Part shown: positions 7,401 to 14,706 of the stretch, piece after piece
Numbering within the stretch: position 1 is the stretch's first letter
Layout: each line of letters begins with the position of its first letter
Assembly (NCBI RefSeq): GCF_002775205.1
Contig: NC_036464.1
Coordinates: 26,504,288 to 26,568,287 of the forward strand
Direction of reading: 5' to 3'
Length of the DNA: 64,000 bases
DNA from: Xiphophorus maculatus
Taxonomy: Eukaryota; Chordata; Actinopteri; Cyprinodontiformes; Poeciliidae
The notes under the pieces: model-generated
Databases searched by the model: none
What the model saw: the letters and a program-made list of their open reading frames with translations, nothing else
What the model was told of the DNA's origin: nothing
Program-made: the position numbers and the translations under genes

Positions 7401-10080
7401 GCAAAACATTTTTGGAATTAAAAAGGGGTACAGTGCTGTAAAATCACTGTCTGATTTATTAAAGCCAAACAACTTATATCAGTGAACCTGACAAATACAT
7501 CCATATTGCAAACATTGCATGGTTAAACAAAAAAGAAAACAGAAGACGGTGACCACCAGGAAGGTATAAAACCAGTCAAACCGTTTTATTTTAAAGGATA
7601 TTGAAACTAAATACTGAATATAAAATTCAGTGCATGAACACACATTTATATTTTATCGAACTTTTCACAAAATAATTTTTCCCAAGACTTATTATGAGGA
7701 GCCTACTGATTTTTTAAAGATATTTTGAAAAGCTTCATGTACCCCCTGCAGTACCTCCACGTACCCCCAGGGGTACGCGTACCCCCATTTGAGAACCACT
7801 GCTCTATCGGGTCGTATTCATTCCCAGCCTGAAACGTTTTGTGCTGTTTTCCTTTCAGTCGTGGCAGTTCTGATTGAATTATGTTCAGAACACCATTTGC
7901 ATGGACAAACAAATTTAAAAAGTGCAACAATGGAATCTCCTCAAAGTCTCAGCTTGGACAAAAACAGAGCTTTGCAAATATTCCCACACACACTCCGGGT
8001 CGAAAGGCCACACACACACAGTTTGACCACAATTTGGTCAAACCTCAATTTGCATCCAGATAGGCCACTTCCATTCTGACAGACCAACCTGAAGCCACAT
8101 CCTCAACCTCTTTCCTTCTCCCAATCAACCCCCATCATTTACACACCTGACAGTCAACCCCCCTCCCCACTGCTGTCCCCTCTCTGATTGGCTGGGTGTG
8201 GGCGTCAGTCACCCAGGTGAGAGCAGTTCTGGTTTGGGGTTGCGGACGGCTCTGGCCTCAGGTTCCATCGCCGGCTCCAGGCAGAGGGAGCGTTTCAGGT
8301 TTTGGGGTTTATTTGGGTTTATTTGGGTTTGGGCCTCTCTGACCACCAGAACCACTCTGCTGCAAACACGAGGTGAGCGCCTGCATATGCACTCGATATC
8401 ATTTATTAAGAAGAAAGCACAGGCAAAGCAAACATTTATTTACCATATTTATGCTTACACACACAAAAAAACATTTTATTTGCACGAGATAAGGTAGAGC
8501 AGATAAAAAGTGTAAATTAAGAAAATGTATTATTAGAATATTAAATTTAACAAACTAAATTTCTAATTTTTTCAGCTACTTCTATGGCTAAATCTAAAAT
8601 ATACCGTGCAATATATTTAAATTTTCCTTTTGTTTACTTCTGAAAATATCAGAACCTGCTAAACAAACTGTATTTTCTTCTTCATTGTTTGTGCTTGTTG
8701 ACATAAGATTTAGATAAAGTAAAAAATTGTGTTTGCTACATAGAATTGGATATGTTTATTGAGAAGTGTATGTATTATTTGAACTATTGACATACATAAC
8801 TGACGCATTTGTTTCTCTACTTTATACACATTTGTTCGACAGAGTTTCTGCAGATTTCACTGAATCAAACTCAAGACATTTTAAGACCATTATGAATGAA
8901 ACTTAAGACTTGTACCATGACAGAAATGCATAAAGGAAAACAGCATATTTTGCGATGTTCTCTACAGCTTTAAGCAGCACAGTGCCCAGTGAGCCACTGG
9001 CAACAATGAACGCCATCCAGCCAACTGCCCATAAATTTGCTCTTATCCATAAAACGTAACAACTTATTTAGCTATCAAAGGTTTAATACCAGCTAGTTAG
9101 CGGTAGCCTCAGCTGAGTCGAGTCACACAACTCAATGAAAATAGCACTGCCACAGCAAAAATTAAGATTTGTGATTAATGTATTTAAGGGCAACTTTTTA
9201 AATTAATTTAAGATATTTTAAGGCCTTAATTTTAGGTACCCAAACATAAGACCTTTTCAGGATGAGCGGACCGCCTGGTTTAAACTAAAGATGAAGAAAA
9301 AGTTTCAAAGACAAACATATTCACTTTATCTTGAAAACTTAAAATAAATAAATAAAAGCTTTTGACCTAAACCTGAAGCTATTCTGTTCAACTACATTTT
9401 GAAAATTATTATTGCTGGAACCATTGTTATTCTTCCAATCCACTGTGATCAGTTGTATAAGTCAAGTCCATGAAGCTTGATTTATCCTTGAAGCGAATGC
9501 TGCGCTGCACGGTCAAGTTGAGTCATTTCAGCAGCTATGCCCCCTCTGTGCGGTCCAAATTTTCCATAACGTGCATCTGTGAAATTTTGCGACTACGCTG
9601 ACAGTTCTGTGCAGGAAAACAAGGCGGACAAGGAGGAACTCCTCCTGGTGGAGATTCGCAAAGACAGACATCTTAATGATTCAGCCCATAAAGACAATAA
9701 TACTACCACACTCAAAACGTGTCGCCTTGTTGCTGCTAACAGCGTTTTTTTCTTGGGAACACCAGACGACCATCAACATTATCACATAATCATGTATCAA
9801 AGTGAAGAGTTGAGGACAACATTAACCAAAATATCACCCAGTTTGATTATTACTGTGGCTTTTTTTCTTTTGTTCAACAGATTTTCATGGCTTCCAACAG
9901 TCTGTTCAGCAGCACTAGTCCCATGTTGTACTGGGGTGAGATGTTTTATTTCACTGTTTGCGTGCGTGTGTGTGCATGTGTGTGTGTGTGCGTGTCATAC
10001 ATCATGCTCTGCAGCTCTGGGATGAAGCTGGTTCTGGAAGCTGGGCGCTCTTTAGAACTGGAGGTGACTGAGCCAGCCAT
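1441..10080 (-). CDS. supt3h: SUPT3H, transcription initiation protein SPT3 homolog
   Basis: Spt3-type subunit of SAGA/STAGA/TFTC histone acetyltransferase complexes; it carries two histone folds and helps deliver TBP. Coding exons in transcript order: 10001-10080, 5947-6031, 5788-5874, 5068-5164, 4851-4987, 4596-4671, 3560-3672, 3367-3471, 3151-3279, 2972-3061, 1441-1482. They total 1041 nt (346 aa) and all phases agree. Motifs: [20 protein letters not shown] then EDIVHTQLI and [14 protein letters not shown] (first histone fold); [59 protein letters not shown] with [13 protein letters not shown] (second fold); [26 protein letters not shown] at the end. Exon 3151-3279 is a proline/serine then basic linker not obvious in the human protein. 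The stretch matching human GPLSPF before the end is missing or in an unseen microexon. The start ATG at 10078-10080 follows an acceptor, so the 5' exon is noncoding. Interlocked with the runt gene. Confidence 0.94.
1775..2115. repeat. MITE-like dispersed repeat, copy 1
   Basis: Begins with GCGTTTCCATTACATATGTG and ends in a degenerate inverted version near 2095-2114. It shares blocks such as CTTCCTGTTGTCTT and cacatgact...gtgtgacgcaaaa with copies at 2405-2945, 33405-34130 and 36895-37360. No ORF is present. It lies in the last SUPT3H intron. A nonautonomous DNA transposon is the best guess. Confidence 0.55.
2405..2945. repeat. MITE-like dispersed repeat, copy 2, with a nested retroelement tail
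   Basis: Same family as 1775-2115 (GTGTTTCTATTATAAATGTG start; AATTTGCACAATGAAAAC end). At about 2523-2643 it is interrupted by a different sequence that ends in AATGACAATAAAGTC followed by TCTAAG-type short repeats. Such tails are typical of short non-LTR retroelement 3' ends, so this looks like one element nested in another. It lies in the last SUPT3H intron. Confidence 0.5.
4682..4786. repeat. (AC)n/(GT)n microsatellite in a SUPT3H intron
   Basis: About 105 bases of uninterrupted AC dinucleotide. On the SUPT3H (minus) strand it is (TG)n ending only about eight bases before the acceptor at 4672-4673. It fills well over half of a 179-base intron and takes the place of a normal polypyrimidine tract. 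Confidence 0.95.
6560..7015 (-). other. Two unidentified coding-like patches flanking a MITE
   Basis: Inside a SUPT3H intron. The patch at about 6952-7015 has a good acceptor (minus strand, GATGTTCAG before it) and reads [20 protein letters not shown]. The patch at about 6565-6612 reads [12 protein letters not shown]. Both look like coiled-coil coding sequence and are separated only by the TIR-bearing repeat at 6624-6914. The second lacks a clean donor. I do not recognise the protein. They may be remnants of one exon of another gene, or chance open frames. Confidence 0.25.
6624..6914. mobile_element. MITE with imperfect terminal inverted repeats
   Basis: Starts AGAGCAGCACGATATT and ends ATATTGAGCAGCTCT, which are imperfect inverted copies of each other (about 15 bases). 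The interior is noncoding. It resembles the common fish repeats that open with a GCACGATA-type end. Confidence 0.5.
7327..7801. mobile_element. hAT-type MITE with 8-bp target duplication
   Basis: Terminal inverted repeats CAGTGGTTCTCAAACTTTTT and, at the other end, AAATGGGG-like sequence running into TTTGAGAACCACTG on the opposite side. Flanking 8-bp direct repeats are CTCTATCA (7319-7326) and CTCTATCG (7802-7809), one mismatch apart. The 475-bp interior has no transposase. TIR and 8-bp TSD fit the hAT superfamily. Located in SUPT3H intron 1. Confidence 0.85.
8022..8043. promoter_or_regulatory. Candidate RUNX-site inverted repeat upstream of the runt gene
   Basis: TTTGACCA, five bases, TGGTCAAA: an inverted repeat containing TGACCACA, the reverse complement of the RUNX-preferred TGTGGTCA. 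RUNX distal promoters are known to carry RUNX sites and to be autoregulated. That this site is used is inference. Confidence 0.35.
8180..8372 (+). promoter_or_regulatory. Candidate distal (P1) promoter and noncoding first exon of the runt gene
   Basis: An inverted CCAAT box (ATTGG, 8187-8191), a GC/KLF-type box (GGGTGTGGGCG, 8194-8204) and GCGTCAGTCAC sit together in a locally GC-richer patch. A good donor (CGAG|GTGAGC) follows at 8372/8373. The exon with the runt ATG is preceded by a strong acceptor (TTTGTTCAACAG ending at 9880), which implies an upstream noncoding exon; this is the best candidate. It is unproven: an ATG at 8198 opens an out-of-frame uORF if transcription starts before it. 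Confidence 0.4.

Positions 10081-14706: not shown

Follow-up and report, generated by a model that had tools for sequence, protein, structure and literature searches.

Does a runt gene that is intertwined with SUPT3H in a teleost genome descend from an ancient vertebrate paralog, or is it a duplicate of the bone-control gene runx2 whose protein has changed beyond easy recognition? The question is raised by a 64,000-nucleotide stretch of the genome of the platyfish Xiphophorus maculatus (the window, in which all positions without a prefix are counted), where the original prediction had recognised the ortholog of the fugu gene FrRUNT in another teleost and had left open whether it is a separate ancient paralog or a fast-evolving runx2b. 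We approached it through the gene model, the distribution of the neighbouring genes over the whole genome, and the rate of change of the runt domain.

A compact runt gene interlocked with SUPT3H

The runt gene was modelled by trying canonical GT/AG sites near each expected boundary, and among the combinations tried only one gives a frame that is open from ATG to stop. It comprises six exons on the plus strand (9887-14706) and encodes a 308-aa product that starts with MASNSLFS and ends with VWRPY:

9887-9935, plus strand: runt exon 1, P1-type start exon, 49 nt, phase 1, 16-codon
12073-12266, plus strand: runt exon 2, start of the runt domain (splice model)
12387-12546, plus strand: runt exon 3, runt domain with an extra Asn in a loop, ALG-N-DVPDG (splice model)
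13092-13196, plus strand: runt exon 4, 105 bp, end of the runt domain (splice model)
13282-13353, plus strand: runt exon 5, 72 bp, short linker (splice model)
14360-14706, plus strand: runt exon 6, reduced C-terminus ending in VWRPY (splice model)

The claim of a six-coding-exon runt gene on this strand is thus borne out by the single open splice solution and by a Pfam Runt match to the product of 209 bits (E 1.5e-62, cut-off 27), and the 17 distinct PDB sequences that match the protein are RUNX1, RUNX2, core-binding factor alpha or polyomavirus enhancer binding protein 2. The gene measures 4.8 kb, of which intron 1 (9936-12072) takes up 2137 bp, in keeping with the predicted compression of the whole unit into about 5 kb. 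The VWRPY motif is present at the C-terminal end of the protein; reduction affects exon 5 as well as the C-terminus, and the PPxY motif is absent, although the C-terminal pieces of runx1, runx2 and runx3 of the same genome all contain it.

On the minus strand, SUPT3H can be followed from start to end (391 bits against the chain of the human SPT3 homolog) in exons that span 1444 to 10098, and CDC5L lies beyond it:

10001-10098, minus strand: first coding exon of SUPT3H, with its ATG at 10080, located in intron 1 of the runt gene
1444-6030, minus strand: remaining SUPT3H exons, whose limits are match limits and not splice sites
5941-6030, 5785-5880, 5057-5182, 4851-4964, 4573-4677, minus strand: SUPT3H exons, approximate (match limits)
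3542-3679, 3304-3480, 2966-3058, 1444-1506, minus strand: SUPT3H exons, approximate (match limits)
397-1106, plus strand: CDC5L 3' exons, found with a human query; the gene begins in the 10 kb that precede the window
11201-11600, no strand: weak rise in CpG (o/e 0.63-0.83) before runt exon 2

The runt exon at 9887-9935 sits between the SUPT3H exons at 10001-10098 and about 5941-6030, and each gene has its first coding exon inside an intron of its partner, with the donors facing each other across a gap of 65 bases (9936-10000). Both sides of this nesting had been anticipated, and both hold: the position of the P1-type start exon inside a SUPT3H intron follows from the flanking SUPT3H exons, and that of the SUPT3H start exon, 65 bases further on inside runt intron 1 with the donors facing, from the coordinates. 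The interlock is inherited and not a new control device.

Around the two start exons, the sequence offers some candidate signals. Since an acceptor-like CAG precedes exon 10001-10098 on the SUPT3H strand, the true 5' end of SUPT3H may be located deeper within runt intron 1, and an acceptor-like AG is found before 9881, upstream of the runt start exon. The CpG bump at 11201-11600 is a candidate P2 or SUPT3H promoter, with similar o/e values at 9401-9800 (0.66-0.76). Two RUNX motifs occur at 9300-9935 and three at 11000-12072, counts that were compared with the window average only, and none at 8100-8400, around the putative non-coding P1 exon that the original prediction implies near 8180-8373 by starting its interval at 8180. 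By blastn, the segment 8180-9880 has no match to the DNA of the runx2 locus on C15 (see below) among the matches listed.

Three other features of the window lie downstream of the runt gene: a near-identical direct duplication (16183-16791 and 17674-18234, 99-100% over 227 and 300 nt), a cytochrome c-like reading frame on the minus strand (46790-47107), and an RNA-recognition-motif gene on the plus strand (55085-58310), which by eye we take to be RBM45-like.

Correspondence to fugu FrRUNT

In fugu, FrRUNT is described as having six exons, an interlock with SUPT3H and an inserted Asn in the runt domain (Glusman 2004, PMC533870), an exon 1 that is 9 nt shorter than in RUNX genes, and a runt domain about evenly divergent from RUNX1-3, at an identity of about 72% (PMC533870). 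The platyfish gene resembles FrRUNT and TnRUNT as described there in its six exons, its SUPT3H interlock, the extra Asn, the 16-codon first exon and the divergent runt domain, and also in having CDC5L and SUPT3H upstream (PMC533870). The shortening of exon 1 is of the same size, 49 nt compared to 58 nt for the coding part of the P1 exon of runx2 on C15, 9 nt less. Downstream of the gene, at 29522-33096, we find a GJA5-type connexin with a Connexin40 C-terminal domain, and a connexin of GJA5 type is reported beside FrRUNT in fugu (Hecht 2008, PMC2265531, S2 legend). The two genes differ in size, the platyfish gene being larger than the values given for FrRUNT (4.8 versus 3.0 kb, with an intron 1 of 2137 versus 1372 bp and a product of 308 versus 294 aa; PMC533870). 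They also differ in that an FSTL6-like gene lies directly beside FrRUNT in fugu, whereas none was seen here in the 49 kb downstream (15000-64000) with one FSTL1 query.

Orthology to FrRUNT, as originally predicted, is thus supported by the extra Asn, the six exons, the short exon 1 and the interlock, on the basis of the described characters of FrRUNT rather than its sequence. With a 53-aa peptide from exon 3 as query, no further relatives were found in viral and genome contig collections.

Origin of the gene

A search of the whole genome for runt domains gave 12 exon matches at four loci, three at each: the present one on C22 and three others that we named by resemblance, partly to human sequence, as runx2 (C15), runx3 (C19) and runx1 (C24). 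An ordinary runx2 is therefore also present in this genome. It extends from the P1 exon at C15:17398917 to a last coding exon ending at about 17456347, 57.4 kb compared to 4.8 kb for the gene on C22, with which it shares the P1 exon MASNSLFS, the exon phase and VWRPY, whereas only the C15 gene has a canonical runt domain and a PPPY motif. In the runx1 gene on C24, an intron falls at the beginning of the runt domain, an arrangement also described for fugu RUNX1 (PMC533870).

The neighbours of these genes are distributed unevenly. Nine of the ten supt3h matches in the genome fall at the C22 runt locus, the tenth being a weak one on C1, and there is no supt3h match on C15, either in the genome search or in 70 kb of C15 DNA. 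All four cdc5l matches are on C22, immediately before the window, into which the gene runs at 397-1106, so that supt3h and cdc5l are each complete only once in the genome, at a single cdc5l-supt3h locus beside the C22 runt gene. On C15, runx2 (plus strand) is followed by clic5 (minus strand), 16 kb to its 3' side, and enpp5 (minus strand), an orientation which fits the human gene order. Clic-type sequences gave 35 genome matches at seven places and enpp likewise 35 in all. Of these clic copies, two were compared with PDB sequences: the C15 clic copy scores 415 bits against CLIC5 and 397 against CLIC4, and the copy at C24:9.474 Mb is closest to CLIC5 by a narrow margin (403 versus 393 for CLIC4). 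The enpp gene on C15 is of ENPP5 type (372 bits versus 273 for ENPP4), and the one beside the clic5-like copy on C24 is of ENPP4 type (177 versus 161 for ENPP5). The C22 runt gene therefore has supt3h and cdc5l on its 5' side and no adjacent CLIC5/ENPP block on its 3' side, the clic5-like/enpp4 pair being on C24.

The ancestral block thus seems to have come down in two sets that complement each other, one being runx2-clic5-enpp5 on C15, the other cdc5l-supt3h-runt on C22 together with the clic5-like and enpp4 genes on C24, and from this division we infer reciprocal loss after the duplication of one RUNX2 block. Among other markers, TMEM151 is neutral, with loci on C15, C19 (two) and C14 and none on C22, and RCAN has five genome matches, only on C19 and C24. 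A blastn comparison of window positions 1-16000 with 80 kb of the C15 locus has 12 rows among the matches listed. Three of them are the runt-domain exons; the other nine are weak, lack colinearity and fall for the most part in SUPT3H introns, and we take them for probable dispersed repeats.

The same gene distribution was seen on fugu scaffolds and called evidence for a duplicated RUNX2, and it was on account of the protein tree that the authors nevertheless favoured a different model (Glusman 2004, PMC533870). That model, argued for in PMC533870, treats the gene as an ancient runt paralog of vertebrates which tetrapods no longer have; by recombination, this paralog would have taken the place of runx2a except for exon 1. 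The platyfish runt domain does reproduce the pattern behind it, since it is about equidistant from RUNX1-3, with 89, 91 and 92 of 118 residues identical to runx1, runx2 and runx3 of its own genome (75.4, 77.1 and 78.0%) and 94 and 92 identical to human RUNX1 and RUNX2 (79.7 and 78.0%), compared to the 90-98% given for the runt domains of RUNX paralogs among themselves (PMC533870). Nor does the runt-domain tree, computed from own-genome and human sequences, nest the gene within runx2. All four inner forks are open, with the bootstrap not settled, and placing the gene with runx2 carries no cost (p-AU 1), placing it with runx1 fits equally (0.568), and placing it with runx3 is barely rejected (0.0475). 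As the tree has no resolution and supports no runx2 clade, we set it aside as support for placement.

A different explanation of the equal distances is provided by the rate of change. The path to the C22 gene in the same tree is about 0.27 changes per column, versus 0.008-0.05 for the others, and in relative-rate tests the changes of this gene outnumber those of runx2 by 24 to 2 when runx3 is the outgroup (p 1.6e-5), by 21 to 3 when it is runx1 and by 20 to 4 when it is human RUNX1. The runt domain of this gene evolves faster than that of runx2, and such acceleration can account for equal distances to RUNX1-3, which counts against an ancient paralog. Single residues point in different directions: positions 121 and 168 match RUNX1 and not RUNX2/3, and position 102 is the only one that favours RUNX2 over the other compared sequences, a residue shared by human RUNX3. 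Outside the runt domain, the P1 exon is by its peptide runx2-like (it scores 46 with runx2, 25 with RUNX1 and 26 with RUNX3). The last exon, too, is of RUNX type and seems closest to runx2, by a modest margin over runx3 (local z 5.7, versus 4.8 for runx3 and 1.3 for runx1), a preference that the recombination model does not predict. That model in addition calls for an extra recombination and for a donor gene that we did not find reported in the text of PMC533870 or PMC2265531, and a search for FrRunt orthologs in tunicates, lancelets, hagfish and dogfish is reported to have found none (Hecht 2008, PMC2265531). We therefore regard recombination with a lost paralog as highly improbable; the gene is probably not a separate ancient paralog.

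Instead, it is very likely that the C22 runt gene is a teleost duplicate of runx2, namely the supt3h-linked copy and the ortholog of FrRUNT, marked by reciprocal gene loss and fast protein change. Of the two possibilities left open originally, synteny and rate thus favour a fast-evolving runx2 duplicate, although not runx2b: because zebrafish runx2b has lost supt3h (PMC3974841), the supt3h-linked gene corresponds to runx2a in zebrafish naming, and zebrafish runx2a indeed lies beside supt3h, like the C22 gene (PMC3974841). A difference of 19% is given for the zebrafish proteins Runx2a and Runx2b, which are regarded as two orthologs of runx2 (PMC9718792).

As to how events followed one another, and how the separation relates to the rate, we infer the following. 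The CDC5L-SUPT3H-RUNX2-CLIC5-ENPP4-ENPP5 block would have been duplicated and its copies would then have lost genes reciprocally; the 3' side of the supt3h-linked copy, with the clic5-like gene and enpp4, would have split off to another chromosome. This separation would have removed whatever 3' regulatory DNA the C22 runt gene had, leaving the present gene of 4.8 kb with its fast-evolved protein. Since zebrafish runx2a mutants are viable (PMC9718792), the supt3h-linked copy may have been free to change.

Predicted function and significance

One could also ask whether the gene is at all functional, or rather a runx2a pseudogene in decay, as its short length, fast evolution and loss of PPxY and much of the C-terminus might suggest. 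However, its six exons are open with canonical splice sites, VWRPY is kept, all 12 DNA-contact residues on the list used are retained, and a similar gene is described in fugu, Tetraodon and stickleback (PMC533870, PMC2265531), so that we consider decay highly improbable. The two redox cysteines are likewise retained. On the CBFbeta face, which we defined in part from PMC2527000, 15 of 22 residues are identical to RUNX1, the changes being L102V, Y113C, T149S, T151N, F153L, V159I and Y162V; an enrichment of changes on this face, with none at the DNA contacts, was not significant (p 0.10-0.15).

A working runx2 duplicate of this kind might still bind RUNX sites with CBFbeta and recruit Groucho/TLE through VWRPY, and as it retains this motif and is missing PPxY and much of the C-terminal region, we tentatively suggest that it could act as a short, repressor-leaning competitor of runx2. 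More speculatively, and in our view rather unlikely in its entirety, an early ancestor of the percomorphs could have undergone a chromosome break directly 3' of runx2a, which removed a 3' regulatory block and thereby freed a near-invariant DNA-binding domain to evolve at roughly five to twelve times the runx2 rate, the remnant being a Groucho-recruiting RUNX without PPxY that would compete at the enhancers of bone genes with the other runx2 and so form a built-in brake confined to percomorph-type fishes.

The best explanation for FrRUNT is not itself new. It was described in 2008 as a fast-evolving Runx2 with an ortholog in stickleback and a translocation inferred 3' of the gene (Hecht 2008, PMC2265531), and what the platyfish adds is one more species and chromosome-level support. 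In a search of mostly open-access literature, we found no later paper that settles the origin of FrRUNT with whole chromosomes. The present data thus contribute chromosome-level evidence of reciprocal gene loss to a puzzle for which the 2004 paper preferred an ancient lost paralog, and they illustrate that a runt domain is able to evolve fast and yet keep its DNA contacts. Of ordinary runx2 genes the platyfish has a single one; should this also be true of its relatives, as may be the case, results obtained with zebrafish runx2a and runx2b would not be simply transferable to these fishes.
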